In this document: in pieces, positions 79 through 15,793 of the stretch
Position numbering within the stretch: the first letter of the stretch is position 1
Layout: every line of letters begins with the position of its first letter
From: Candidatus Neomarinimicrobiota bacterium
GTDB lineage: Bacteria > Fidelibacterota > Marinisomatia > Marinisomatales > TCS55
DNA length: 24,172 nucleotides
Direction of reading: 5' to 3'
Assembly: GCA_018651745.1 (NCBI GenBank)
Contig: JABIDL010000035.1
Location: forward strand, 1 to 24,172
Notes under the pieces: model-generated
Seen by the model: the letters and a program-made list of their open reading frames with translations, nothing else
What the model was told of the DNA's origin: nothing
Databases searched by the model: none
Position numbers and translations under genes: made by a program

Positions 79-2601
79 TCACAGCGAAATCTTTCGTAAT
101 CGCAATGCATTGCCAATGACAGTTACCGAACTGAAACTCATGGCGGCGGCGGCTATAATGGGGCTTAGCAGAATTCCGAAAAACGGATAGAGTATTCCGG
201 CGGCAATTGGAACTCCCAACCCATTATAAGCAAAAGCCCAAAAAAGGTTTTGCCGAATATTCTTCATAGTTGCCTTACTTAATTGCCGACCCCGAACAAT
301 TCCCGACAAATCGCCTTTAATCAACGTCATATCTGCGCTTTCCATCGCCACATCAGTGCCATTGCCCATAGCGATTCCAACGTCTGCCTGCGCCAAAGCG
401 GGAGCATCATTTATTCCGTCTCCGGCCATGGCTACAATTTTTCCTTCATTCTTCAATTTTTTTACAATTTCGTGTTTCTGATTTGGTAAAACATCTGCTT
501 CCACATGGTCAATTTCCAACTTTTTCGCTACGGCATGTGCTGTTTTTTCATTATCTCCGGTGAGCATGACGATTTGTAAATCTTCATTTTTTAATTCTGT
601 TATTGCGCCGTGAGTAGATTCTTTGATGGGGTCAGCTACTCCCAAAATGCCAGCAGGCTTAGAATCAATAGATACAAACATAACGGTGCATCCTTCTTTT
701 TGCATTTCGGTTGCCAAATCTCTTAATCCGCCAAAGTCCACATGCAACTCGTTCATCCATTGCAAATTGCCAATAGAAATTGTTTTTTCATTGACTACTC
801 CATGAACACCTTTTCCAGTCAAAGAATTAAAATCGGAACATGTTTCGATAGGTAAATCTCTTTCTTGCGCTTCAGAAACAATAGCATTCGCTAAGGGATG
901 TTCACTCACTTTTTCAACGCTTGCAGTCCATTGCAATAAATTACTTTCAGAAACCGGATCAATAGTGTGAATACGAGTGATTTTCGGCTTTCCTTCCGTC
1001 AGTGTGCCAGTTTTATCCACCACAAGTATATTGACTTTCTCCATGATTTCAAGTACTTCCGCATTTTTAATCAATACACCGTAAGCGGCGCCACGACCGG
1101 TGCCAACCATAATAGACATAGGTGTCGCCAATCCAAGTGCGCACGGACAGGCAATAATCAATACAGCAACCATGTTTATTAAAGCAAATGCAAATCGCGG
1201 TTCGGGACCCCAAATAGACCAAATCATAAAGGTTACCATACTGACTCCAACAACAGCCGGCACAAAATATGATGCAACTTTATCTGCAAGATTTTGAATG
1301 GGTGCGCGGCTGCGCTGAGCTTCATTGACCATCTGCACAATCTGGGACAGAAGCGTTTCCCTGCCAACTCTCTCTGCTTTCATTAGCATCGATCCCGTTC
1401 CGTTTACAGTTGCGCCCACAACGGTATCACCTTCATTTTTTTCTACCGGGATTGACTCGCCGGTGACCATGGATTCATCCACACTACTTTGCCCTTCAAT
1501 AATTACACCATCCACGGGGATTTTTTCACCTGGCCGAATCCGCAGAATATTTCCTTTTTGTACATGTTCTAACGGTATATCTTCTTCTCGGTCATCATCG
1601 CCAACCAAGCGAGCGGTTTTCGGCGCCAACCCTAATAGTGCTTTTATGGCACTACCGGTTTTATCTCGCGCGCGTAGTTCTAAAACCTGGCCCAAAAGCA
1701 CTAACGCAATAATCACTGCTGCAGATTCAAAATATACGGGAATGATACCGTCTGCATTTTTCAATGCTGCAGGAAAAATTGACGGAAACAACGTAGCAAT
1801 CACACTGTAGGAATATGCCACACCTGTACCAATGGAAATTAGAGTAAACATATTCAGGTTTCTGCTTTGAATGGATTTCCAACCTCGATGGAAAAAGGGT
1901 AATCCGCCCCATAAAACTACCGGCGTTGCTAATGCTAATTCTAACCACGTCTGCAACGAACCAAAAAATCCGCCGGTGAACATTCCGCCCATGGTAATGA
2001 CCAATAATGGCACCGCCAGAACAACGCTAACCCAAAACCGTTGGGTCATATCAATCAATTCAGGATTTCCTGTATCTTCAAGTGAAACTTCCATGGGTTC
2101 AAGAGCCATTCCGCAAATAGGGCAATCTTCCTGTTGATCCCTTATGATTTCCGGATGCATTGGGCAAGTAAATTGAACATTTGCACCTTCAGGAATCCTG
2201 GTTTTTTCAGGCTTCTTATCGCTCAGAAATGAATCCGGGTCTGCATCAAATTTTGTTTTGCAATGGGTACAGCAGAAAAAGAATTGTTGGCCATTATGTG
2301 TCGATTTAGCCGCAACATTTTCAGGGTTAACATCCATACCACACACAGGGTCTTTTTCAGCTTTAAGTGCAGTATCAGAACAACAAGCTGATTCATCCTT
2401 GACTTCTTTCGATTCTGATATCACGAAATTTTCCGGATGTTTCATAAATAAATCGTGGCAATATTCGGCACAGAAACCGTAGACCTTCCCTTCCCAATCC
2501 ACAGTAGAAACTGCTGTTTTTTCTGTGACCGTCATACCACATACAGGGTCTTTTAATTCAAAACTAGAATCTTTCATTGGAATATTTTCAGGTAAGTTCA
2601 T
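79..2601 (-). CDS. copA: Copper-exporting P1B-type ATPase with N-terminal YHS-YHS-HMBD array
   Basis: This inner-membrane pump should use ATP to move Cu+ (or Ag+) from cytoplasm to periplasm. The 840-residue protein starts with a YHS domain (about 18-60; C21, C44, C48), a CC pair at 73-74, a second YHS domain (84-126; C87, C110, C111, C114) and a heavy-metal-binding domain (143-172; C146, H149, C160, C163). The ATPase core follows, with TGES at 380-383, the CPC metal site at 485-487, the phosphorylated Asp in DKTGT (529-533), the HP motif at 568-569, GDGINDAP, and the late-membrane YN and MSFSS motifs typical of the Cu+ subgroup. There is no classical GMTCxxC HMA domain; the YHS/HMBD array replaces it. 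The ATG shares one base with the stop of the upstream lipoprotein gene (TAATG), so translation is probably coupled. The assignment to Cu+/Ag+ is firm; which metal dominates cannot be told. Confidence 0.95.
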
Positions 2602-3120: not shown

Positions 3121-4866
3121 TTATTTTAACAGAATTAGTTTTTGAGTTTCAACATGACTTCCACTTTGTAGCACTGCAAAATAAATACCACTTGGCTGAT
3201 TGGATCCATTCCATTGAATTTTATGTGTACCCCGTTCAATTATCTTATCTAGCAAGGTTGTTACCAATTTACCAGAAATATCAAATAATTGTAGGGTCAC
3301 CACAGTATTTGTTTCTACAGAAAAACGGATTGTAGTTGTCGGATTAAAGGGATTTGGGTATGCGTTGTGAAAATTGAAATCTGTTACTAATATTTCAGGT
3401 CCACCTATTCCAACTGATGATGTATCTACTACGGTAAATTGTCCCATCATTCCAGTTTCTTCGTGAGTAAGTATATGGCAGTGATACATATACGGTACGG
3501 ACGTATCTGAAAAGTCTTCAAATTTAGTAATAAATTTTGCTGTACCATTCTGAGATGGGACCAAAACGACATCTTTCCACCCTTGCATATGTGGAGGAGG
3601 CGCTACACCATTTATTTCTAAAATATTGAACTGAACATCATGGATATGAAATGGATGTGCAATTTGTGATTGATTCCTTAATTCCCATATTTCAACATTA
3701 TTCAATGGAATTTCATAATTAACCACATTGATATCAAAAGGGTCACCATTAAACTGAAACGGACCATTTAATGCACCGTTTGAGCCCATGTTAACCGGTG
3801 AAAAAACAATCTCTCTCGTTTGATTAACATCGGCTGGATTCCATGGTAAAACAGAAACAAGTGAAGTCGGAATGGTTGTAATTGGATCAGCTGTGGAGGA
3901 AGTAATACGCATTTCCAATAATGTAAAATCACTTCCATTTAATGGATTGTCTGCATAATAGGGGATCGAACTTCCACCCATTCCTCCTACAATACTTGCG
4001 CCATAAATTCCATTCGGTATCAACGACCCATAATTCATTATACGAATGGTGTCGCCAGTCATATTGTTCAAATCAATCAATACTTCATAACGTTCCCCAG
4101 GGGAAATTATTAATTGATCCAACGCAATAGGTTCGGGTAATAATCCTCCGTCAGTTCCTATTACATTAAAATTTGAATTATTATCTAGACCAATATTAAA
4201 GGACCGTTCGGAAGACCCATTCAATAAACGAAGTCTGATAATTTGCGCCGGTACATCAAGATACGCATCTATTGTTCCATTGGTGAATAAAAATGTATCT
4301 AACCCACTTGAATCCATATTGGTTACAATTTGATAATTTTCGTTCAATGTTTTTGTCTGAAAAACAAGAGGAATATCGTCCACGCCATAGTTCCTTGGCA
4401 AATCCAATAATGCCTCTTCATCATCTTTGACAATTACAAACCCGGCAATTCCCATTTGAACATGTTCATTTGTTTTATGCATTAGATGAGGATGGTACCA
4501 CATGGTAGAAGCGTGGTCTTTTACAGTAAAATACGGGTTCCAAATAGTATTCGGAGGGATGGGCGTGTGAGGGCCTCCATCAAATTCAGCCGGAACGTGC
4601 ATGCCATGCCAATGAATCGTGGTTGTATCAGGAAGTTGATTATCAAAAGTAATATTCACGTCTTCCCCTTTATCCATAATCAAGGTAGGTCCAAGGATAG
4701 GGTAACTCACACCCATAGTTTGAGTAAATATTCCGGGAAAAAATTCCATCTCACTTTCTTGTAGTACAAGATCAAAATTACTACCTGTCAAAGCAGGTGG
4801 GACAATTAACTGATTTTGACTAAAAGCTAAATTATTTATGATAAGTACTAACATTATTTTTTTCAT
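3121..4866 (-). CDS. Secreted multicopper oxidase with C-terminal T9SS-like sorting domain
   Basis: This is a three-cupredoxin oxidase of the CueO/CotA/bilirubin-oxidase type, expected to oxidise Cu(I) to the less toxic Cu(II) or to act on metals or phenols outside the cytoplasm. All copper-ligand motifs are present: HWHG at 85-88, WYHPH at 123-127, HPFHIH at 404-409 and HCHILTHE at 462-469, with Met 473/474 as the axial type-1 ligand. Residues 1-17 form a Sec-type signal peptide without a twin-arginine motif, unlike CueO. Residues about 490-581 form a sorting domain with YPNPFNPTTTIRF (503-515) and a terminal beta-strand 'QKLILLK', as in proteins carried out by type IX-like secretion. The length of 581 is normal for oxidase plus tag. 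An AGGA sits about 9 bases before the ATG. It lies downstream of a strong hairpin and upstream of the lipoprotein and copA genes. Confidence 0.92.
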   Translation of the reverse strand: MKKIMLVLIINNLAFSQNQLIVPPALTGSNFDLVLQESEMEFFPGIFTQTMGVSYPILGPTLIMDKGEDVNITFDNQLPDTTTIHWHGMHVPAEFDGGPHTPIPPNTIWNPYFTVKDHASTMWYHPHLMHKTNEHVQMGIAGFVIVKDDEEALLDLPRNYGVDDIPLVFQTKTLNENYQIVTNMDSSGLDTFLFTNGTIDAYLDVPAQIIRLRLLNGSSERSFNIGLDNNSNFNVIGTDGGLLPEPIALDQLIISPGERYEVLIDLNNMTGDTIRIMNYGSLIPNGIYGASIVGGMGGSSIPYYADNPLNGSDFTLLEMRITSSTADPITTIPTSLVSVLPWNPADVNQTREIVFSPVNMGSNGALNGPFQFNGDPFDINVVNYEIPLNNVEIWELRNQSQIAHPFHIHDVQFNILEINGVAPPPHMQGWKDVVLVPSQNGTAKFITKFEDFSDTSVPYMYHCHILTHEETGMMGQFTVVDTSSVGIGGPEILVTDFNFHNAYPNPFNPTTTIRFSVETNTVVTLQLFDISGKLVTTLLDKIIERGTHKIQWNGSNQPSGIYFAVLQSGSHVETQKLILLK

Positions 4867-4968: not shown

Positions 4969-5256
4969 CTATTTATTCTTACAACAGGCTTTGGTTTCAG
5001 ATTTTTTCCAAAACATCCAACTGCTGGATTTTTTGTGATCACATTTCGATGATGCCTCACTTTTTTCACCTTTATACGCACAATTCTCTTTCTTTGAACT
5101 GTCGCATTTTTTACTCTGGTGGTCGCAACCCACTGCCAAAGAATTCTGAGCTTTTGCAGGTTCAGTGATTTCCGTTTGGACTGTTGGAGTTTTATCCTGC
5201 GCAGAAATTACTGATATTGCTGCAGTCATGATAAAGACCATTAATAGGTTTTTCAT
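4969..5256 (-). CDS. Small secreted Cys/Lys-rich protein, candidate periplasmic metal binder
   Basis: I do not recognise a named family. The start at 5256 is chosen over the longer frame (5313) because it has AAAGGAAAG 7 bases upstream and opens directly with a signal peptide, MKNLLMVFIMTAAISVISAQ. The 95-residue product has a Pro/Thr/Glu linker (21-40), then a hydrophilic tail with six cysteines (C44, C51, C59, C72, C91, C92), two copies of C-D-H (44-46 and 72-74), about a dozen lysines and a terminal ACCKNK. Such composition suggests soft-metal binding in the periplasm; this is inference from sequence and from position directly after cusA and before a multicopper oxidase. It is not similar in sequence to the other Cys-rich protein at 11791-12144. 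Confidence 0.7.
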   Translation of the reverse strand: MKNLLMVFIMTAAISVISAQDKTPTVQTEITEPAKAQNSLAVGCDHQSKKCDSSKKENCAYKGEKSEASSKCDHKKSSSWMFWKKSETKACCKNK

Positions 5257-5318
5257 TTTACTTTCCTTTCGTTTGTGTATTGTTTGTTTGATTATTAATT
5301 CACCAAATCTCATTGGTT

Positions 5319-8300
5319 TTATTGAATTTCTTTTTCTTTTATCATCGAATAAAAAATCGGCACTACAAATGTAGTTAAAATCGCAAATACCATTCCACCA
5401 AAGGATGGAATCGCCATGGGAACCATCACATCTGCGCCGCGACCGGTGGACATCAAAACAGGAATCAGAGCCAAAATGGTAGTAGCTGCAGTCATCATGG
5501 CCGGACGGATTCTCCGTACGCCGGCAAACACAACCGCTTTGCGAATATCTTTAATTGTATCCGGTTTCCGCTGCTGAAAACTTTGATCAAGGTAGGTGCT
5601 TATTATAACTCCATTATCACTTGCGATACCAAAAAGCGCTAGGAAGCCAACCCACACAGCGACACTCAAATTCACCGGATGAATTTGAAACAATTCGCGT
5701 AGGTTTTCACCAAAAAGTCCGAAATTCATGAACCAGCCCTGTCCATAAAGCCAAAGCATCACAAACCCACCTGACCATGCAACAAAAATTCCGCTAAAAA
5801 CTATTAATGCAGTTGATACTCTTTTGAACTGAAAGTATAAAATTAAAAATATGATAATCAATGCAAGAGGTAACACAACTGCCAATTTTTTTGATGCACG
5901 GATTTGGTTTTCATAGGACCCTGCAAATATATAGCTTACACCTGCTGGAACGTTCAACGTCCCAGATTTAATGAGATGGTCCAAATAAGATTGTGCTTCT
6001 TCTACCACGTCCACCTCAGCCCATTCATCCAATTTATCAAACAAGACATACCCAATTAAAAATGTATCTTCACTTTTAATCACCTGCGGACCACGGACAT
6101 AATTCATGGTCGACAATTGTCCTAACGGAATTTGAACACCGTTTTGTCCCGGAACTAAAATCCGGTCCAGTGATTCCATATCGCTACGGTAATCCCGCAT
6201 ATAACGCACCCGGACGGGATACCTTTCTCTACCTTCTACGGTAGTGGTGATGGGCATACCACCAATAGCAACCTCAATCGCATGTTGGACTTTTTGCAGT
6301 GAAATTCCGTAACGGGCAATCGATCGCCGATTTATATCAATTTCCAAATATGGTTTTCCAACGATTCTATCAGCAAACACCATTTCGGGTTTTACGCCGG
6401 GGACATTTTTTAGGTGTTTTTCCAGCTCCATTCCAAACGCTTCAATGGTGGTTAAATCAGGTCCTTTAACCTTAATTCCCATGGGAGCGCGCATTCCACT
6501 TTGCAGCATCACAAGACGGGCAGAAATTGGCTGTAATTTTGGCGCAGATGTTGTCCCCGGAATCTGGGCAGCTTTGACCAGTTCATCCCAAATATCGTCG
6601 GCAGTGCGAATATGGTCTCGCCATTGACGAACACGTTTTCCATTCTCATTTAGACCATATTCAGATTTATAAGAAACAATCGTTTCAACCATGCTCAAAG
6701 GCGCCGGATCGAGCGGTGAATCTACCCTGCCAATTTTACCAACTACCGATTCCACCTCCGGGACGGAATACAATGCTTTATCCAAAGTTTGCAGCACATC
6801 AATAGATTCTTCCATTCCGGCATGAGGCATTGTGGTTGGCATGTACAGGTAGGAACCTTCATCCAGCGGTGGCATAAATTCCTTTCCCAACCCCGGGAAA
6901 GTATGCTGCATTGCGATAAATGGACGGGAGGAATGGACAAACCTCGGCATCCAGCCAAAGAAAGCATCAAATCCCAGCCAAACAAGCAATCCGAGGATCG
7001 TAACCAACGCCGGCAACGAGAGTGCTTTTACTTTATGATCTAAAGCCCATGCCAAAATTTTTGGATATACTTTCGTGAAACCGGTTATCGTGCCCATAAT
7101 TAAGGCAATTAGAAATCCTGCAAATAGGAAATTCAAAATGAATCCTTTTTCCAATCCCAGCGGCGACCATGTTGATGCCAAAATGAAAACCACCATCACA
7201 ATCACCAATCCATTGCCTAACCATGGGAATTGTTTCAATAGGGCTATTTCAAACCTGAATCGTTTTTCCTTTTTTCCAAGTAGCCAATGCGCAATGACCG
7301 GCAGAATCGTCAGGGCAATAATAATGGATGAAATCAAGGCAAACGTTTTGGTGTAAGCCAAGGGTTTGAATAATTTCCCTTCCGATCCAATCATGGTGAA
7401 AACAGGTAAAAAACTGATCACAGTTGTGGAAACGGCAGTGACCACCGCACTGCCTACTTCTGATACAGCATTAAAAATCACTTCCTTTGTTTTTTCTTTC
7501 GCCTTTTCCAAATGTTTCAAAATGTTTTCAGTCACCACAATTCCCATATCCACAATAGTGCCAATAGCAATGGCAATTCCGGAAAGGGCGACAATGTTGG
7601 CATCTACTTTAAATACTTTCATCCCAATGAAAACCATCAAAACAGTCAGAGGCAGCATCCCGGAAATCAACATAGACGACCGAAAATGCATAACCATCAC
7701 AAGGATTACGATAATCGTGATTAAAATCTCGTCCCGTAGTGCATGGCTCAATGTACCTAGCGTCTCATAAATCAATCCTGTTCGATCATAAAATGGTACA
7801 ATAGTCACTTGACTCACAGAACCATCAGAAAGTGTCTTTTTGGGTAATCCGGGAGAGATTTCCTTTATTTTTTCTTTTACATTCTGAATGGTTGCCAGTG
7901 GATTTTCGCCGTATCGAGCTACCACGACACCTCCCACTGCTTCTGCGCCTTCTTTATCCAACACGCCTCGACGCAACGCCGGGCCCAAGGTAACATGGGC
8001 AATATCTTTAATATAAAGCGGAACATTATCTCTAGTTTTTACTACGGTATATTCTATGTCTTCCAATGATTTAATGAACCCCAATCCACGGACCATATAT
8101 TCTACACGATTGATTTCCACCGTTCTGGCACCCACATCCAAATTGGATTGGCGAACCGCATTAAATACTTCTGTCAATTGAATGCCGTGTTCCCGCATTG
8201 CCATCGGATCCACATCAATTTGATATTCTTTTTGGAATCCGCCGATAGATGCTACCTCTGACACTCCAACTGCAGATTGAAGGGCGTAACGCACAGTCCA

Positions 8301-8837
8301 ATCCTGAATACTTCTTAGTTCTTCTAAATCCCAACCGCCGGTTGGATTGCCCTCTTTATCACGACCTTCCAGCGTGTACCAAAACACCTGTCCTAAGGCC
8401 GTAGCATCGGGTCCTAATGCGGGAGAAACACCTTTCGGGACTGTACCGGATGGAAGAGAATTGAGTTTTTCTAAAATGCGCGAACGTGACCAATAAAAAT
8501 CTACTTTTTCATTAAAGATGACGTAAATGGTGGAAAATCCGAACATGGAATAAGACCGAATGGTCTTCACATCGGGAATTCCTAGCAAAGCAGTGGTCAG
8601 CGGATAGGTAATTTGGTCTTCAATATCCTGTGGACTTCTTCCAGACCATTTTGTAAAAACAATCTGCTGGTTCTCGCCAATATCCGGAATGGCATCCACT
8701 GGCACCGGATCCCTCGGTAGATTGCCCAGATTCCAATCGAATGGCGCTACCATAATACCCCAAACCACAGCGCCAACAAGCAGAATGGCAACAACCAATG
8801 TATTGTCAAGAAAATATCGTATTATTTTATTTAGCAT
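5319..8837 (-). CDS. cusA: Heavy-metal efflux RND pump (CusA/CzcA family), Cu/Ag type
   Basis: The inner-membrane, proton-driven pump of a tripartite CusCBA system, expelling Cu(I)/Ag(I) through the adaptor and outer-membrane channel. The three methionines that form the CusA metal site in E. coli have counterparts here: LYMP (M666), PLSMVET (M716) and RLVMLQSGM (M777), which favours Cu/Ag over the Zn/Co/Cd (CzcA) type. The proton-relay Asp of TM4 is present (IVDMGIVVTEN, D430). The protein is 1172 residues, longer than the roughly 1047 of E. coli CusA. Part of the extra length is a hydrophobic stretch at about 541-590, before TM7, that looks like two additional membrane segments. The ATG at 8837 has no strong ribosome-binding sequence, and 137 bases separate it from cusB. 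It is followed, 62 bases on, by the small Cys-rich gene. Confidence 0.95.
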   Translation of the reverse strand: MLNKIIRYFLDNTLVVAILLVGAVVWGIMVAPFDWNLGNLPRDPVPVDAIPDIGENQQIVFTKWSGRSPQDIEDQITYPLTTALLGIPDVKTIRSYSMFGFSTIYVIFNEKVDFYWSRSRILEKLNSLPSGTVPKGVSPALGPDATALGQVFWYTLEGRDKEGNPTGGWDLEELRSIQDWTVRYALQSAVGVSEVASIGGFQKEYQIDVDPMAMREHGIQLTEVFNAVRQSNLDVGARTVEINRVEYMVRGLGFIKSLEDIEYTVVKTRDNVPLYIKDIAHVTLGPALRRGVLDKEGAEAVGGVVVARYGENPLATIQNVKEKIKEISPGLPKKTLSDGSVSQVTIVPFYDRTGLIYETLGTLSHALRDEILITIIVILVMVMHFRSSMLISGMLPLTVLMVFIGMKVFKVDANIVALSGIAIAIGTIVDMGIVVTENILKHLEKAKEKTKEVIFNAVSEVGSAVVTAVSTTVISFLPVFTMIGSEGKLFKPLAYTKTFALISSIIIALTILPVIAHWLLGKKEKRFRFEIALLKQFPWLGNGLVIVMVVFILASTWSPLGLEKGFILNFLFAGFLIALIMGTITGFTKVYPKILAWALDHKVKALSLPALVTILGLLVWLGFDAFFGWMPRFVHSSRPFIAMQHTFPGLGKEFMPPLDEGSYLYMPTTMPHAGMEESIDVLQTLDKALYSVPEVESVVGKIGRVDSPLDPAPLSMVETIVSYKSEYGLNENGKRVRQWRDHIRTADDIWDELVKAAQIPGTTSAPKLQPISARLVMLQSGMRAPMGIKVKGPDLTTIEAFGMELEKHLKNVPGVKPEMVFADRIVGKPYLEIDINRRSIARYGISLQKVQHAIEVAIGGMPITTTVEGRERYPVRVRYMRDYRSDMESLDRILVPGQNGVQIPLGQLSTMNYVRGPQVIKSEDTFLIGYVLFDKLDEWAEVDVVEEAQSYLDHLIKSGTLNVPAGVSYIFAGSYENQIRASKKLAVVLPLALIIIFLILYFQFKRVSTALIVFSGIFVAWSGGFVMLWLYGQGWFMNFGLFGENLRELFQIHPVNLSVAVWVGFLALFGIASDNGVIISTYLDQSFQQRKPDTIKDIRKAVVFAGVRRIRPAMMTAATTILALIPVLMSTGRGADVMVPMAIPSFGGMVFAILTTFVVPIFYSMIKEKEIQ

Positions 8838-8926
8838 AATTTTCGTTCATCCCAAACCATTGAATAATTGGTAGCATAGAATCGAAATGACAAACTACGT
8901 GAATCATTTCTAACCATTTCCTTTTG

Positions 8927-8953
8927 GCAACAATCCACTCCACTCATTGTTGC
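8927..8953. repeat. 8-bp inverted repeat in the cusB-cusA gap
   Basis: GCAACAAT (8927-8934) and ATTGTTGC (8946-8953) form a perfect stem with an 11-base loop. It lies just after the cusB stop codon (8975). On the minus strand no T-run follows it. It could be a small intercistronic hairpin affecting the relative expression or mRNA stability of cusB and cusA. The remainder of the 137-base gap shows no other structure or frame that I can support. Confidence 0.35.
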
Positions 8954-8974
8954 AATCCATTTTTAATTCCCATC

Positions 8975-10417
8975 TTAATGCTGATGATTTATTGGTTTAT
9001 TTTTATTCATATTCCCGTCGGGATTCATCATACTGGATTTGGCGGCAATCTGCATAGCGCTATCAATTTTAAAATTCCCTTTAACTACAACTCGTTCACC
9101 TTTGTGAAGTCCACTTCTGACGATGTAAAAATCCCCGGCTCGGTGTCCCAAAACAATCTCGCGTCCTTCAAATGTTTCATTATCTTGTTGAACATAAACA
9201 ATGGCCCGTTGACCTGTTTTTAACACAGCGCTGACAGGAACAAGTAAAGGATTTGAACCATTGCTATGATGAACAAACCCAAGAGATTCTGCCGATTCTA
9301 ATTTCATTCCGCAAATGGAACAGTTACCTTTTCGGTTATGAACTTCTTCCGGATGCATAGGGCACACCCATTTGCCAATCAAATTTTTTCCCATTGCCTG
9401 ACCGTGAGAATCAATATTTGCTTTTACGATTCCGCTTGTAAACATTCCCGGTTTTAGCATTCCCGAAGCATTATCTACATTGAGTCGTACCCGAACAGTT
9501 CGCGTTTTTTCATCAACGATCGGATCAATAAATGCCACAGCACCGGAGAATGTGTGTCCCGGAAGCGCCGCAGTAGTGAATGTAACATTTTGTCCATACT
9601 GAATCATGGCGACTTCAGTTTCATAAACATCCAGTTTTACCCAGACTTGTTCCAGACCAACCACATCAAAAAGCTTTGATCCGGTTTTTACATAATTCCC
9701 TTCGACTGCACTTTTGGCAATAACTACACCTGATATTGGACTAAAAATCGTAACTCTATCGGACGGTGTTCCTCTACTTTCAATTTCTGAAATTTGATCA
9801 TTCGTTAAACCGAGTAATTGTAATTTTTGCCGAGATGCTTCCAAAATCATGTCAAACCCGTTACCGGATGAAGCATCTGCACGCAAACGAATTGCTTGCA
9901 AAAATTCTTCTTGCGCAGAAACCAATTCAGGGCTGTATAATTCTACTAAATGGTCTCCTTTCTGTACAGATATTCCAGTGAAATCCACAAATAATCTTTC
10001 AATGCGTCCGGGGACCCACGCCGTAATGGATTTGATGCTTGTTTCATCATAATCCACTTTCCCGGATACTTGAATTTCTGCAAATGCTTCACCATGTTTC
10101 ACCTCGATTGTTTCAACTCGTGCAAGTGCTTGAGCTTCCGGTGATAAAATTAATTCATTCCTGTTAACCGAAGATGATCCTTTGGCTACCGGAATTAAAT
10201 CCATAAAACAAATTGGACATTGCCCCGGCTCAGGCAAATTGACACTGGGATGCATAGAGCAGGTCCAAGTATCCGCTTCTACTTGTGAACTACGATGCAT
10301 TTGGTTTTCTTCCATTTCGCCTGGAAACCCAAACCATAAACCGATTAAAAACGTTAGGACCATAAATCCCCAAGTGAAACCGTTGAAATGTTTGATATTG
10401 TCTAATATTTTATTCAT
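8975..10417 (-). CDS. cusB: CusB-type periplasmic adaptor with two heavy-metal-binding modules
   Basis: The membrane-fusion protein linking the RND pump to the outer-membrane channel. Residues 13-30 are a single membrane anchor. A heavy-metal-binding domain follows (about 49-78; C53, H56, C67, C70, with CPICFM rather than CPICGM). Then come the lipoyl/barrel-sandwich and helical-hairpin parts (about 110-240, including 'VPGRIERLFVDFTG' and 'SPISGVVIAKSAVEGNYV') and the beta-barrel (255-335, 'KPGMFTSG'). A second metal-binding domain is inserted at 349-374 (CPMHPE, CSICGM; C352, H355, C366, C369), before the membrane-proximal domain (about 390-455). The C-terminus is Met/His rich (MMNPDGNM, ending NHQH). 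AAGGA sits 7 bases before the ATG. CusB is known to bind and hand over Cu/Ag, and the extra modules fit that. It starts 36 bases after cusC. Confidence 0.93.
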   Translation of the reverse strand: MNKILDNIKHFNGFTWGFMVLTFLIGLWFGFPGEMEENQMHRSSQVEADTWTCSMHPSVNLPEPGQCPICFMDLIPVAKGSSSVNRNELILSPEAQALARVETIEVKHGEAFAEIQVSGKVDYDETSIKSITAWVPGRIERLFVDFTGISVQKGDHLVELYSPELVSAQEEFLQAIRLRADASSGNGFDMILEASRQKLQLLGLTNDQISEIESRGTPSDRVTIFSPISGVVIAKSAVEGNYVKTGSKLFDVVGLEQVWVKLDVYETEVAMIQYGQNVTFTTAALPGHTFSGAVAFIDPIVDEKTRTVRVRLNVDNASGMLKPGMFTSGIVKANIDSHGQAMGKNLIGKWVCPMHPEEVHNRKGNCSICGMKLESAESLGFVHHSNGSNPLLVPVSAVLKTGQRAIVYVQQDNETFEGREIVLGHRAGDFYIVRSGLHKGERVVVKGNFKIDSAMQIAAKSSMMNPDGNMNKNKPINHQH

Positions 10418-10453
10418 TATATCATCCTTTATTAATCCGATAGATTATTTGAA

Positions 10454-11680
10454 TCATTCTTCAATCCCCAAAAAAGATTCTAAAATCGCTTCGTGGGTAA
10501 GATAACTTACAATTGCTTTCTCATATTCTAATTTGAACTGAAGTAAACGTCTTTGGGCATCAATCAGTGTTAAGAAATCTGCTTTATCGCTGATATATGC
10601 TTTTTCGGATGCGCCCAAAGATTCCCGGCTTTTAGGAATCAATTCATTTCCATACAATTCTATTTTTCGTCGAGCATCATCCATTTTGAACAGGATATTT
10701 TCTGCAGCGGCAATCATTCTGTTCTGATGACTGACGAGTTTATTTTCTGCAGCTGTTTTTCTGTATCGAGCTGCGGATATTTCTTTTGCATTCTTTCCAA
10801 ACCAAATGGGTAAATCAATTGAAAATTTGAACAATAACGGATCTTTCCCGCTATTTGGGCTCCCTTCTTTTTCTCCGGTTCCGATATAATCCACGCCCAA
10901 CCCGAAATCCGGCAGATATTGCAGTTTTGCTCTCTGTAATACACTTTTGCGAGAACTGACAGAATATTCAGCCGCTAAGAGCGTGTGATTCTTTTCCCGT
11001 ATCATTTGAAATACAGATGCTTTGGGTAATTCTTGCCATTCCACATGTAATGAATCATGGTGGTCAATTTGAACTAAAGATGGATCATTAATTACAGATC
11101 TGAATTCCTGCAATAGAGGATTTTTACGAGTTGTTAATGATTTCAGATCATTTTGTAATTTAAGTAATTCAATTTGAGTTTTTATGAAATCCAGATGCCC
11201 GGCTTGAGCAGTTTGATATTTGGTTTGAATAACCTTTTCCCAGTTTTCCAACAAATGGACATTTTGCTGAGTAATGTCAATGGCTCTTTCAAGATAATAC
11301 ACATCATAATAAAGTGATTTTATTTTTGCCGTAACATCTGCTAAAGTTTGAAAATATATTTGTTCCAATGCGTCCGCTTGGGAAGATTTTGCTCGACTGG
11401 CTGATCCCAGTTTTCCAAACATGGGGAATTTCTGCATGATTCCAATTTTATATTCCTGCGGTCCGACTGCAGTTTCTACACTTTCCTGAAAAACGCCAAC
11501 ACTCAACATTGGATTTGGCAGTTTTTTAGCCACAGATATTTCGTCCTGTGAAGCTTTCCAAAGATAAAATGCACTCTGCACATCAGCGTTATTTTCTTGA
11601 CCAAATTTGACATAATGATCTAATGATTGTTGGCCAAAAATATTCGCCGCTAACAACGTTATTGTTAAAATTATTTTCAT
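10454..11680 (-). CDS. cusC: Outer-membrane efflux channel of TolC/CusC family
   Basis: The outer-membrane exit duct of the tripartite Cu/Ag pump. I place the start at the ATG at 11680 because MKIILTITLLAANIFGQ is a clean signal peptide; a GTG at 11704 would add eight residues with no obvious role and would overlap the GGAG. The 408-residue product shows the paired long coiled-coil/strand pattern of outer-membrane efflux proteins, with typical stretches 'KLPNPMLSVGVFQES', 'LPDFGLGVDYIG', 'IDLPIWFGKNAKEISAARYR' and 'LTLIDAQRRLLQFKLEYEKA'. There is no lipobox, unlike E. coli CusC. It is the first gene of the cusCBA block, 110 bases downstream of a secreted Cys-rich protein gene, with a terminator-like hairpin and a leader hairpin in between. 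Confidence 0.9.
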   Translation of the reverse strand: MKIILTITLLAANIFGQQSLDHYVKFGQENNADVQSAFYLWKASQDEISVAKKLPNPMLSVGVFQESVETAVGPQEYKIGIMQKFPMFGKLGSASRAKSSQADALEQIYFQTLADVTAKIKSLYYDVYYLERAIDITQQNVHLLENWEKVIQTKYQTAQAGHLDFIKTQIELLKLQNDLKSLTTRKNPLLQEFRSVINDPSLVQIDHHDSLHVEWQELPKASVFQMIREKNHTLLAAEYSVSSRKSVLQRAKLQYLPDFGLGVDYIGTGEKEGSPNSGKDPLLFKFSIDLPIWFGKNAKEISAARYRKTAAENKLVSHQNRMIAAAENILFKMDDARRKIELYGNELIPKSRESLGASEKAYISDKADFLTLIDAQRRLLQFKLEYEKAIVSYLTHEAILESFLGIEE

Positions 11681-11688
11681 GTCTAAAT

Positions 11689-11705
11689 AGTGATTATTTA
11701 TCACT
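11689..11705 (-). promoter_or_regulatory. Leader hairpin between SD and cusC start codon
   Basis: On the minus strand the leader reads GAAGG, then AGTGATAAATAATCACT (6-bp arms, 5-base loop), then ATTTAGAC and ATG. Linearly the GAAGGAG is over 20 bases from the ATG, too far for normal initiation. If the hairpin forms, GAAGG would be about 8 bases away. The dyad could instead be a protein-binding operator. Both ideas are inference from the bases. Confidence 0.4.
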
Positions 11706-11717
11706 CCTTCATTGATT

Positions 11718-11750
11718 AAAAAAACGGATGCCGTTTAGATGCACGGATCC
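11718..11750 (-). terminator. Intrinsic terminator or attenuator before cusC
   Basis: On the minus strand GGATCCGT (11750-11743) can pair with ACGGcATCC (11734-11726, one bulged C) across an 8-base loop, followed by G and seven Ts (11724-11718). A shorter alternative, AAACGG-CAT-CCGTTT (11736-11722), uses some of the same bases. A further 5-bp stem, GCGGA/TCCGC, lies at 11757-11772. The element ends about 38 bases before the cusC ATG, so it would end or attenuate transcripts coming from the Cys-rich gene. Confidence 0.5.
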
Positions 11751-11790
11751 CTTGTAGCGGACAATAATCCGCAAATAGTTTCAGGAGTGT

Positions 11791-12144
11791 CTAAATCAGA
11801 AGTGGAAGATTGAGGTGGGCTATAGGCCCGGGGTCGGATTCTATCCGATGAATGTATAATTCAGATTTGTTATTTGTGATCTGGTAGTTTTGAATTGAAA
11901 AATTTATTACTGCATCAGTTGTTTTCAAATCGGCTTTATGAAAAGGACCTGATACAATTGGCATAAATACCGACGTTCCGCAATCTGACATTGTCGGACA
12001 ATCAATATCTTTTTTCATATCGCAACAGGATTTTTCCACTTTAATGCAACAAGGCATTTCACAGTCACCTAAATGAATAAAGGGTGCTGCAGTAGCGCCT
12101 GCGAACAGGATGATTAAACCAATGGCTGTTATATTTTTCAGCAT
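11791..12144 (-). CDS. Small secreted protein with Cys cluster, first gene of the copper island
   Basis: I do not recognise a named family. The 117-residue product has a signal peptide (1-20, cleavage likely after ATAA). A compact cluster of seven cysteines follows within 28 residues: C28, C32, C33, C40, C41, C49 and C55, including two CC pairs, CxxxCC spacing and interspersed Met, Asp and Lys. The second half (about 60-117) has no cysteine, is strand-rich ('AVINFSIQNYQIT', 'SELYIHRIES') and ends in a hydrophobic PIAHLNLPLLI. The arrangement suggests a metal-binding head plus a small folded or membrane-associating tail, acting outside the cytoplasm. AAAGGAAC immediately precedes the ATG. Placement directly ahead of cusCBA supports a role in copper/silver capture or delivery, but this is inference. 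Confidence 0.7.
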   Translation of the reverse strand: MLKNITAIGLIILFAGATAAPFIHLGDCEMPCCIKVEKSCCDMKKDIDCPTMSDCGTSVFMPIVSGPFHKADLKTTDAVINFSIQNYQITNNKSELYIHRIESDPGPIAHLNLPLLI

Positions 12145-12190
12145 GTTCCTTTAATATACGCCATAATATCAAAAAGTTCCAAATACAGCA

Positions 12191-12730
12191 TTATTTAATA
12201 ATTTTTATCAATTCACGGAAGTTATTACCCTCGGCAATTTCCTGAAGTTCAAACAATGCAGTTTCTACACTGGTTTGGGATCCGCCATTCAGAATGATCT
12301 TATCCAGCCCCATGTCTCGATTGAAAGACGTCCGGGACGACACGGCATCTGCAACCACCTGAACCTCATACTCGGCTTCCAATAAATCTACAGCTGTTTG
12401 ATATACACAAACGTGCGTTTCAATTCCGGAAACGAGAATTTGAGTTGCGCCGGTATTTTTTAGGGCTGATTGGATGTCCGAATCGCGCCAGCAAGAAAAC
12501 TCTTTTTTAATGAACGGCTTTTGCCCATCCAGTAAGTCAGCAATTTCAGGAATTGTTTCGCCTAGTTTTTCCGGAAGCTGTTCTGTCCAGATTATCGGAA
12601 TATTCAAAACTTTCGCACCGCGTATGAGTTTCCGCATATTAGCAACATATTCATCGGCGTTCTGCATAATTCGAGCGAGCTTTCCTTGAACATCTATAAC
12701 GATTAAAGCGGTAGAAGATTTTTTTAACAT
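12191..12730 (-). CDS. Isochorismatase-family cysteine hydrolase
   Basis: A 179-residue member of the isochorismatase-like hydrolase superfamily, cytoplasmic, with a typical length and fold. The probable triad is visible: D13 in ALIVIDVQGKL, a Lys at 75/76 in FIKKEFSCW, and nucleophile C108 in SGIETHVCVYQTA, preceded by the usual cis-peptide region G-I-E. Members near this type include YcaC-like and nicotinamidase-like amidohydrolases; the substrate cannot be told from sequence. The start at 12730 is preferred over an upstream codon at 12766 because it opens at the conserved beta-strand and overlaps the preceding gene's stop by 7 bases (ATGTTAA), a common coupling arrangement. It sits 46 bases upstream of the Cys-rich gene of the copper island but shows no metal-related feature. 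Confidence 0.88.
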   Translation of the reverse strand: MLKKSSTALIVIDVQGKLARIMQNADEYVANMRKLIRGAKVLNIPIIWTEQLPEKLGETIPEIADLLDGQKPFIKKEFSCWRDSDIQSALKNTGATQILVSGIETHVCVYQTAVDLLEAEYEVQVVADAVSSRTSFNRDMGLDKIILNGGSQTSVETALFELQEIAEGNNFRELIKIIK

Positions 12731-13233
12731 AAGGTTTTTAATTCCTTCCAATAGACGGTTGCCCAATGATCAACGGTGCCGCCTGTTCTTACGATTTCAA
12801 CCGTGTTCATTAGGAATGAATCCTTCACGTCCAATTTACGAATAATAGACCTTTTTTGCTCTTCTGGCATTTCCTTGTAAATAAGACTGATATGAGGATT
12901 GAAGGAGTATGGATTTAGATTCGGAGTTAGGATATGAGATTCAATTTGGTGCTGGAAGTTAGATAATTCGTGGGATTTTTCCAGTTCAATGAAAATTGTT
13001 TTCCAGATTACATCGGACTGACCGATGCCGGTTTTCCTCACCTCAATTGGGTTCAGGCCAATAGATTTAATAAGATCTTTGGCAGTGGATAAATCCGTAA
13101 CGGGAGAATACAGCGTACAGTGAGGACTGAAAAATGGTGCATCATATTCCTCTGCTAATTCTCTAATCACTGAGGATAAAAACGCTTCATCTTCTTCACA
13201 TGGTGTCAACCAAATTGAATACTGTTCAATCAT
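12724..13233 (-). CDS. 2H phosphoesterase (cyclic phosphodiesterase / 2'-5' RNA ligase-like)
   Basis: A 169-residue protein carrying the two H-x-T/S motifs that define the 2H phosphoesterase superfamily: PHCTLYS (H38, T40) and NPHISLIY (H114, S116), about 75 residues apart as in plant-type cyclic nucleotide phosphodiesterases. The start 'YSIWLTP' and the ending 'VDHWATVYW' also match that branch. Such enzymes act on 2',3'-cyclic phosphates or 2'-5' linkages in RNA products; the exact substrate here is unknown. Its final bases overlap the isochorismatase-family gene. It follows a 142-base gap after the peptidase gene. Confidence 0.82.
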   Translation of the reverse strand: MIEQYSIWLTPCEEDEAFLSSVIRELAEEYDAPFFSPHCTLYSPVTDLSTAKDLIKSIGLNPIEVRKTGIGQSDVIWKTIFIELEKSHELSNFQHQIESHILTPNLNPYSFNPHISLIYKEMPEEQKRSIIRKLDVKDSFLMNTVEIVRTGGTVDHWATVYWKELKTLC

Positions 13234-13252
13234 TTAAATTATAAACAAGCTT

Positions 13253-13365
13253 AACGCAGAGGCGCAAAGCGCAGAGTAGGTTTTTAAAATGGGGTATTCT
13301 GAAATTTGTATATCTGTTTTTTCTATGATCAATATTATCTGAATTTTCGTTAGCGCCTTTGCGTT
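13253..13365. repeat. Widely spaced 13-bp inverted repeat flanking an intergenic spacer
   Basis: AACGCAGAGGCGC (13253-13265) and GCGCCTTTGCGTT (13353-13365) are inverted copies with one mismatch, 87 bases apart, filling most of the gap between the M1 peptidase stop and the 2H phosphoesterase start. The left copy continues as AAAGCGCAGAG, a degenerate tandem of GCRAAG-like units. The motif resembles dispersed CGCAAAGGCGCAAAG-type repeats seen in many bacterial genomes. It may be a REP-like element or a long-stem structure; no frame lies within it. Confidence 0.45.
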
Positions 13366-13375
13366 GAAAAAAGGT

Positions 13376-15793
13376 TTAGTGACCGCGTTTTTTACTACGC
13401 TTTCTTTTGGGTTTATTCAGATTTTCAATTGCGTCATCGATGGCATCAGCATTTATCGGATCGTATAAATTTTCCAACAATTCAATATGTTTCTTTTTCC
13501 CGTACCTTCCAACAGTCCCAATGGATGCGGATCGCACATTTCTATTCGGGTCTTCAAGATGATCTGCAAACCATTCCAAGAGTTCAGGGTTGTCTTCCAC
13601 TTTTCCGGACAGCGCCCAGACAGCCGATAAACGGGCATCCCAGGTAGTACCTCCATATTCTGCTAAATCCTTCAATTCGGCTAAAGAACTGTCTGTCTCT
13701 TGTTTAGAAATGGCACGAATCGCAGACCGGCGCAGCATGTCGTTATGAGAATCGGTATTAAGTGCCCAGTGTATTTTCGCATTAAAGGCAGAGGTGTCCA
13801 CTTTCCAAAGGCTATTAAAGGCATCATTTATGAGATAATCCTTTTCGTCCACTGAAAGAAATCCAAGTAAAAAATCCCGGACTTCATCACCTGTGTAATT
13901 TTTAAGGGCCCGAACACAGGCGCGCTTCACTCGATTGTCTTGCCCTTTTGCGGCCGCGATCAATTTTGCTTCCACTTTCCGGGGTTTTAACTTTCCTATT
14001 GCATTTGCTGCTTCTGCACGGACGCCAAAAAATGAATCGGTTTTCAATGATTCAAACAATGCATCCACAACCGATTTTCGTGCACTCAGTTTCCCCAGCT
14101 CATTAGCTGCCCAAACCCGATCATTCACATGGGACGCATATTGTAACTGATATATCAAATCTTTCATTGATTTTTTATGGGTTAAATATTTTGGGATCAA
14201 ATTTCCCTCATCAAATAAAACCATGTTTGGTTTTCCATCTGACGGAAACGTAAAGGTCTGCTTTTCTTCTTCAATAAAAATAACATGCTGCGTCATTTTG
14301 CCATCATCCACAACAATCGTCACAGGAAGTTTAAACAAAGATGTTTCTTCAATATTCTGTGTCTGGGATACTGTCATCGTAACCATATTATTCCGACGGC
14401 TGTACTTGGTTTTCACTTCAAGTTTCGGAAGTCCTTTAGTGTAAACCCACTGATCAAAAAACCAGTACAGATTCTGTCCGGTAGCTTCCTCAAATGCCTT
14501 TTTCAAATCCTGAGTCTCCACATTTTCAAATGCATATTTTTGGGTATAATGTTTCATGCCTCGCCAGAATGATTCATCGCCAAGATATTTTTTAAGCATA
14601 TACATGATGACTGCACCCTTGGCGTAGATATTGGCATCAAATACTTCCCAACTCTTTTCATAATGATACTGAACAATGGGACGTGAATGGTAATTATTTG
14701 CACGTATAACGCTTTTCAGTGATTGAAGTCTTGCGTATTCTCCACCATCAAATCCTTTATCATGTTCCACCCAAACAAGAGTCATAAAAGAGGTTAATCC
14801 TTCGTTAAGCCATGCATTTGCCCAGTTGCGAGTTGTCAGCAAATCGCCATACCATTGATGGGCGAGTTCATGAGCCACCAGTCCGTCGCTAGAATGATCC
14901 GGCCGGGCATTTTCTGTATGCATCGTTTCATCAGTTTGGTGAGAGAGTGTTATGTTTTCCATTCCGCCAAACATGAAATCCTCTAGCAAGACTTGATCGT
15001 ATTTTTCGTAAGGATAAGGGAATCCGGTGCGATCGTTGAAAAGGGAAATCATTTCCGGTGTTTTACCGAAGGACCGGAGTGCATCTTCTCTGCTGTGTTC
15101 CTGATACACCCAATAATTCACGGGCAACTTTCCATGAGAATCCTCAATTTTTTTATAATCGCCAATTGCAAACGACATCAAGTACGCAACCATCGGAGAA
15201 TTTTCCTTCCAATGGAATGTTTTCTTATTGCCGTTTTTATTGATTGAAATGAGTTCGCCGTTGGATACTGCTGTCAAATTTTCGTCAACTGTAAGAATCG
15301 TTTCAAACGTGGCGCGGTCGTTTGGATAATCGTGCAACGGCACCCAATAATGATTGTCCATATCTTCGCCTTGCGTCCACGCCTGCAAATGTTTTTCCGG
15401 ATAGACAGAATCAGGAAGAATGAAAAAGAGCCCAAGTTTGGGTTCAGCCCTATATTCAATTTTTATGTTGAGTGTATCTTCAAATCCGTATTCCCCGTCC
15501 AAATCTATTTCGAGCTTTTTTTCTTGCGCTTCAAATGTTAGCGATTTCTTCCCATTCAAAGTGACGGATGATACGACTGTGTGCTCACTGTCCAAACTTA
15601 TCCGAGATAAATTTGTTTGAAGTGGACTGAACGTATTCGTTACGTTTCCCTCTACCGATTCTCCTCGAATATCTATCTCAATTTCGATGCGAATATGGTG
15701 GACGTCAAAATCCCGGTCTGGCGTAGGGTTGTAGCGTTTTTCTTCTGCATAAGTAAGTGCAAAAAGAATAGAAAGTAAGAAAATGTGTTTCAT
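13376..15793 (-). CDS. Exported M1-family zinc aminopeptidase with HEAT-repeat C-terminus
   Basis: An 805-residue gluzincin. Residues 1-16 form a signal peptide, so it acts in the periplasm or at the surface. The N-terminal beta domain (about 25-215) precedes the catalytic domain with the exopeptidase motif GGMEN (276-280), zinc site HELAH (308-312), third ligand E331 in NEGLTSF, and the catalytic Tyr Y390 (NIYAKGA). After a beta-sandwich (about 455-535), residues 543-790 form HEAT-like helical repeats ('VWAANELGKLSARKSVVDAL', 'VRAEAANAIGKL', 'RLSAVWALSGKV', 'VRSASIGTVGRYG') instead of the usual M1 C-terminal domain. The end, KPKRKRSKKRGH, is strongly basic. AGGA lies about 6 bases before the ATG. 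It probably cleaves N-terminal residues from peptides for nutrition. It follows the TonB-dependent receptor by 81 bases and may share its transcript. Confidence 0.93.
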   Translation of the reverse strand: MKHIFLLSILFALTYAEEKRYNPTPDRDFDVHHIRIEIEIDIRGESVEGNVTNTFSPLQTNLSRISLDSEHTVVSSVTLNGKKSLTFEAQEKKLEIDLDGEYGFEDTLNIKIEYRAEPKLGLFFILPDSVYPEKHLQAWTQGEDMDNHYWVPLHDYPNDRATFETILTVDENLTAVSNGELISINKNGNKKTFHWKENSPMVAYLMSFAIGDYKKIEDSHGKLPVNYWVYQEHSREDALRSFGKTPEMISLFNDRTGFPYPYEKYDQVLLEDFMFGGMENITLSHQTDETMHTENARPDHSSDGLVAHELAHQWYGDLLTTRNWANAWLNEGLTSFMTLVWVEHDKGFDGGEYARLQSLKSVIRANNYHSRPIVQYHYEKSWEVFDANIYAKGAVIMYMLKKYLGDESFWRGMKHYTQKYAFENVETQDLKKAFEEATGQNLYWFFDQWVYTKGLPKLEVKTKYSRRNNMVTMTVSQTQNIEETSLFKLPVTIVVDDGKMTQHVIFIEEEKQTFTFPSDGKPNMVLFDEGNLIPKYLTHKKSMKDLIYQLQYASHVNDRVWAANELGKLSARKSVVDALFESLKTDSFFGVRAEAANAIGKLKPRKVEAKLIAAAKGQDNRVKRACVRALKNYTGDEVRDFLLGFLSVDEKDYLINDAFNSLWKVDTSAFNAKIHWALNTDSHNDMLRRSAIRAISKQETDSSLAELKDLAEYGGTTWDARLSAVWALSGKVEDNPELLEWFADHLEDPNRNVRSASIGTVGRYGKKKHIELLENLYDPINADAIDDAIENLNKPKRKRSKKRGH

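Follow-up and report, generated by a model that had tools for sequence, protein, structure and literature searches.

A putative metal-sensing leader protein ahead of cusCBA in Candidatus Neomarinimicrobiota

Evaluating a 24,172-nucleotide stretch of a Candidatus Neomarinimicrobiota genome (assembly GCA_018651745.1, contig JABIDL010000035.1; hereafter the window), we found that a 117-aa Cys-rich open reading frame (11791..12144; this and the features of the leader-to-ATPase locus below lie on the minus strand) probably encodes a leader protein that senses metal and regulates, in cis, how cusC, and hence cusCBA, is translated; we infer the identity of the metal and the direction of control from sequence. 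The leader gene is followed by cusC (10454..11680; outer membrane efflux protein, OEP at 1.4e-38; the proposed regulated gene, its start set at ATG 11680 by frame comparison with loci L040, L052 and L059), cusB (8975..10417; two heavy-metal-binding domains, HMBD), cusA (5319..8837; CusA/CzcA RND transporter, TIGR00914), a second Cys/Lys-rich secreted protein of 95 aa (4969..5256), a multicopper oxidase (3121..4866), a SnoaL-like gene, and a Cu+-type P-type ATPase (79..2601; two YHS domains, one HMBD). A preliminary description of this DNA had singled out the two small proteins as unrelated to each other, flanking cusCBA within a copper/silver locus, and outside named families such as CusF, all of which holds; it had further proposed that they capture metal and hand it over, a reading that we assess separately for each protein below.

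Whole-genome and profile searches place the leader in an unnamed family without a database model, spread over the uncultured marine phylum Neomarinimicrobiota. The former recovered relatives from 39 of the 101 near genomes, the latter from 80 of the phylum's 245 genomes, covering 34 of 84 genera. The gene directly after the leader is cusC in 49 of 73 loci, the start of a second, small HMA-like/outer-membrane operon in 12, and something else in the remaining 12. Comparison of the window copy with its nearest relatives indicates purifying selection (dS at least 1.4 vs dN ~0.3), and because both small proteins are conserved and the leader is under such selection, neither is a chance open reading frame. 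Neither protein has a family match in Pfam or NCBIfam or matches the CusF models at E ≤ 1, and 38 leader-family members yielded no convincing match to Pfam/NCBIfam models. DUF2946 (PF11162), the Pfam family of CutF and CruR, matched none of these 38 at E ≤ 1 and was found in none of the 245 genomes of the phylum, while CopL (NF033807) and HYC_CC_PP (NF047658) likewise matched none of the 38 at E ≤ 1. Searches of PDB sequences found nothing for the leader, the intergenic RNA after it had no match in Rfam, and no relatives were found on plasmids or viral contigs. As a side observation, the only HYC_CC_PP match among the 245 genomes is L151 (G105:C245:4092-4256), in a genome without a leader match.

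The anatomy of the leader separates into four parts: a signal-peptide-like N-terminal segment, a Cys cluster, a variable linker, and a conserved C-terminus. The N-terminal segment shows Lys/Arg, a hydrophobic core and an AxA-like site in homologues, the signal peptides of both small proteins having been judged by eye and not by a dedicated predictor. Seven cysteines fall within 28 residues, as previously claimed (C28, C32, C33, C40, C41, C49 and C55; CEMPCC...SCC...C...C, codons 28–55, 11980..12063), and form the proposed Cu(I)/Ag(I) sensor; across 38 homologues C28 and C41 are invariant, C32, C33, C40 and C49 are conserved in at least 90%, and the family as a whole carries 5–9 Cys. The linker evolves near neutrality (pN ~0.5 between close species), and though it is the least conserved part of the leader, the stretch between the last CC and the C-terminus is held at 80 residues (sd 2.9) and the total length at 111–123 aa (mean 118.6, sd 2.5). 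The last 15 residues (SDPGPIAHLNLPLLI, codons 103–117, 11794..11838) form the proposed arrest or slow-termination segment, where most pairs with the window copy show pN of 0.08–0.12 vs pS of 0.6–0.8; because pN is low while synonymous sites are free, the C-terminal peptide itself is under selection. The leader ends in [PS]L[LRIV]x-stop in 70 of 72 homologues, and in 45 of the 72 a PP lies inside the last 15 residues, ~9 residues ahead of the end; most relatives read PPPxFxxPLLI. The window copy has SDPGP and no PP in this segment, DPGP replacing PPP in its own genus and in one neighbouring genus.

Given a signal peptide, a Cys cluster and the cus context, the leader had earlier been taken for a periplasmic carrier or buffer whose Cys cluster captures Cu(I)/Ag(I) before passing it to CusB or the oxidase, and one protein can indeed be leader and binder together. 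We nonetheless consider a carrier decidedly unlikely, since the linker is near neutral, the length is fixed, the C-terminus is the most conserved part, and AlphaFold models of five sequences gave no confident fold (mean pLDDT 36, itself uninformative about fold); a carrier would also leave unexplained the covarying stem, described next, that runs from the leader stop codon to the next Shine-Dalgarno (SD) sequence. Taken together, the neutral linker, fixed length, conserved C-terminus, lack of a confident fold and SD-masking stem argue for a regulatory nascent peptide of the CutF/CruR type rather than a carrier, and serve as a warning that Cys-rich secreted open reading frames beside metal pumps are not to be read as metal carriers.

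The gap between the leader stop and the next start is mostly 66–131 nt (cusC begins 110 nt downstream in the window), and in nearly all loci the bases immediately 3' of the leader stop pair with the next gene's SD. In the window the anti-SD arm CACTCCT (11783..11789) starts 2 nt after the leader stop and forms a perfect 7-bp stem with AGGAGTG (11702..11708), which overlaps the cusC SD, AAGGAG (11709-11704). Pairing between a locus's own arms was stronger than between arms swapped among loci, both in a first set (−12.5 vs −8.3 kcal/mol, sd 0.43; 0/2000) and in a second, independent set of 30 further loci that played no part in forming the stem idea (−14.4 vs −8.8 kcal/mol, sd 0.56; 0/5000), a comparison that is conservative because the loci are related. 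The longest helix likewise spanned 8.5 bp for own arms vs 5.95 bp for swapped arms (0/300), and the first pair flanking the SD core was paired in 54 of 55 loci while its type varied (CG 24, TA 12, AT 11, TG 7). The stem signal is absent at L035, L069 and L126. Within the window's genus, one species has the leader before cusCBA and another (L034) has it before the other operon, with a matching stem in each. Also in this genus, genome G001 carries the leader ahead of the alternative operon, again with a stem matched to it, and G002 carries a leader that has no cus genes behind it and hardly any stem. This is consistent with a module in which the stem goes along with whichever gene is regulated. 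This strong covariation signature makes the mechanism directly testable.

How a ribosome would act on this stem was evaluated in a folding model, whose values are calculations with standard energy parameters and not measurements. When the initial 15 nt, counted from the stop codon, were covered, the modelled cost of opening the SD fell from 6.5 to 1.7 kcal/mol, whereas covering stretches from position 20 on did not lower it, and 32 ordinary gene pairs taken from the fetched loci showed no such effect (3.1 to 2.7). Stepping the ribosome back codon by codon, the SD opened only with the A-site within ~2 codons of the stop, so stalling at the PP motif would leave the ribosome too far upstream; because the modelled opening is confined to a ribosome near the stop, the pause is predicted at PLLI-stop. 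We know of no precedent for arrest by PLLI-stop.

That a ribosome at the stop codon suffices to open the SD in the model would also suit plain translational coupling, in which the stem opens upon leader termination without sensing by the nascent chain and metal control is transcriptional, through an ECF-like promoter. A conserved promoter-like motif ahead of the leader speaks for this account as well: in the window TTGGAAC-N15-CGTA (12157..12182) lies 12 nt before the leader ATG, the exact motif occurring twice in the genome, and G[GA]AAC-N15/16-[CAG][GA]TA is found upstream of 40 of 73 leaders vs 1.25 expected in shuffles, mostly 8–16 nt ahead of the ATG. The motif and its position suggest that the leader gene has an ECF-type promoter of its own and that its transcript has a very short 5' end. 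Coupling without sensing is nevertheless unlikely in our judgment, as it leaves unexplained the conserved Cys, the fixed distance from Cys to the end, and the conserved C-terminal peptide.

With the leader read as a sensor, the window's own copy is a less clear case, its modelled switch being weaker than in relatives. The intergenic region folds better than shuffles (z −2.9), but the stem taken alone (−11.8 kcal/mol) has a strength that the top fifth of ordinary gene pairs also reach. Unmasking lowered the modelled opening cost from 6.9 to 5.6 for AAGGAG and from 2.8 to 1.5 for AAGG (a gain of ~1.3 kcal/mol), a small change, as a second hairpin competes for part of the SD. This alternative hairpin P4 (AGTGAT-aaata-ATCACT, 11689..11705) lies between the SD and the cusC ATG, which are 23 nt apart, and is mutually exclusive with the SD:anti-SD stem; comparable hairpins occur at L040, L052 and L059, the other loci with a 21–23 nt SD-ATG gap, and our guess is that in such long-gap loci the hairpin may bring the SD near the ATG. 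Two further hairpins are predicted by folding inside the stem: P2 (GCGGAT-TATT-GTCCGC, 11757..11772), with hairpins at the same place in relatives, and P3 (GGATCCG...CGGCATCC, 11723..11753), which is followed by a T run and is terminator-like in the window copy.

The seven T after P3, together with T-rich sequence at L040, L052 and L059, would suit transcription attenuation, the controlled step being either Rho-dependent, by analogy with CruR, or an intrinsic terminator between leader and cusC, formed by P3 and its T run. We regard attenuation as highly improbable, since the T run is missing in most loci and the near-universal feature is SD pairing. A terminator-like hit lies at 11736-11722, but the terminator reading was rejected: terminator-like sites in the window were not above shuffles, and the site is not conserved.

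The proposed sensing mechanism can be laid out as follows. As the sequence shows, the anti-SD right after the leader stop pairs with the cusC ribosome-binding site and closes it as long as no ribosome is there. The leader would be exported co-translationally, such that its Cys cluster reaches the periplasmic side once the ribosome nears the end of the gene, where binding of Cu(I)/Ag(I) would slow the ribosome at the conserved PLLI-stop end. The paused ribosome would then cover the anti-SD and free the cusC site, so that the presence of metal leads to pump synthesis, and the leader would be expendable after release. Extending this to a phylum-wide family of exported arrest peptides that sense Cu(I)/Ag(I) through multiple Cys and unmask the SD of cusC or of the alternative operon by pausing at the stop is a tentative step, whose chances we put somewhat short of even. 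We know of only a few bench demonstrations that a nascent exported protein can sense metal at the level of translation, CutF and CruR among them.

The closest system in its way of working is CutF of Rhodobacter capsulatus (Ozturk et al. 2023, PMC9973294), a short exported leader with a Cys metal motif, a conserved C-terminus, adjoining copper genes and a stem hiding the next SD. Because CutF-like genes most often lie upstream of OEP (CusC-type) genes (PMC9973294), finding a leader ahead of cusC has precedent. Set against the CutF-like features given there, the window copy at 117 aa falls under the size limit (<150 aa), homologues have a typical-looking segment, by eye, where an N-terminal Sec signal peptide is expected, and a covarying stem-loop hides the downstream SD, though it is weaker alone in the window; a PP in the last 15 residues is missing from the window copy and present in the 45 of 72 homologues counted above. 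The differences from CutF as described are that it carries CxxxC where the Neomarinimicrobiota leaders carry 5–9 Cys, that the near-universal end here is PLLI-type followed by stop, with no DUF2946 match, and that the anti-SD here starts within a few nt of the stop codon; Neomarinimicrobiota is not named in the main-text sections of that paper covered here. CruR of Bordetella pertussis stalls at RAPP, copper relieving the stalling and Rho terminating transcription (Roy et al. 2022, PMC9426467), with arrest within RAPP shown (PMC12992588); it shares a position upstream of a copper gene and a Cys motif at fixed distance from a C-terminal arrest motif, whereas the modelled geometry here calls for pausing at the stop codon, which speaks for SD unmasking. 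CopL and HYC_CC_PP are likewise small exported Cys-containing proteins, to go by their names and, in the case of CopL, the CutF paper (PMC9973294). SecM, MifM and VemP (cited in PMC9973294) share an exported nascent chain whose stalling controls a downstream gene, but sense export, not metal. What is new here is the leader family, the phylum-wide covariation evidence, the siting of the anti-SD at the leader stop, and the pause site that the model predicts.

The 95-aa protein (4969..5256) is a separate item, a rare Lys/Cys-rich secreted protein that plausibly acts as a periplasmic metal buffer. As previously described, it has a signal-peptide-like start (by eye), six Cys, two C-D-H units (CDHQ, CDHK) and many Lys. 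Relatives occur in 8 of the 245 genomes, and the tie to metal genes, which the neighbourhood survey bore out for the leader, is looser here: four of the eight lie at copper genes, the other four having unrelated neighbours. Metal binding stays plausible for this protein, its G022 relative lying between cusA and the oxidase and carrying an HMBD. As the 95-aa gene precedes the oxidase in the window and the region downstream of it can pair with the oxidase SD (−11.8 kcal/mol), it could be an oxidase leader, like CutF before CutO, but about one fifth of ordinary pairs reach this value, so that it is not significant, the fold favours a local hairpin, the G040 relative lies after the oxidase and the G001 relative does not adjoin it, and the protein lacks a PP or PLLI-type end, all of which renders an oxidase leader very unlikely.

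Several further observations concern this end of the locus and the leader's neighbours. The gap between the 95-aa gene and the oxidase (4962-4923) holds a near-perfect inverted repeat, GAGAGTCTTTCGGGG...CTCGAAAGACTCTC, with a stem of ~17 bp and without a T run. The 95-aa protein and small secreted Cys proteins at L140:3842-4177 and L141:4307-4690 have in common a W-rich motif (WMFWKK / WWKVWGKK / WWKFWSKK) that precedes a CC close to the C-terminus, and several relatives of the 95-aa protein have a WMFWKK-like motif in this region. At L137:3932-4663 two small HMBD proteins lie between cusA and the oxidase, one of which starts like the 95-aa protein, which suggests domain shuffling of small periplasmic metal proteins. 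A type IX secretion sorting domain forms the tail of the multicopper oxidase, which may therefore be exported past the periplasm. Upstream of the leader (12191-15793 and relatives), a neighbourhood of isochorismatase-like, 2'-5' ligase-like and M1 peptidase genes, with no obvious metal link, is conserved in many genomes of the order. The alternative operon behind some leaders (L034:6681-8281; same place in L036-L039, L043, L049, L060 and L064), without a Pfam match in the copies scanned, is possibly an undescribed metal transport system, encoding a 132-aa exported Cys protein (GLVCSFC) and a 270-aa outer-membrane-like protein (AHQPVMDMAPRW), in most cases together with a 126-aa membrane protein (GTLLCCVLPAVVATIAGGAA).
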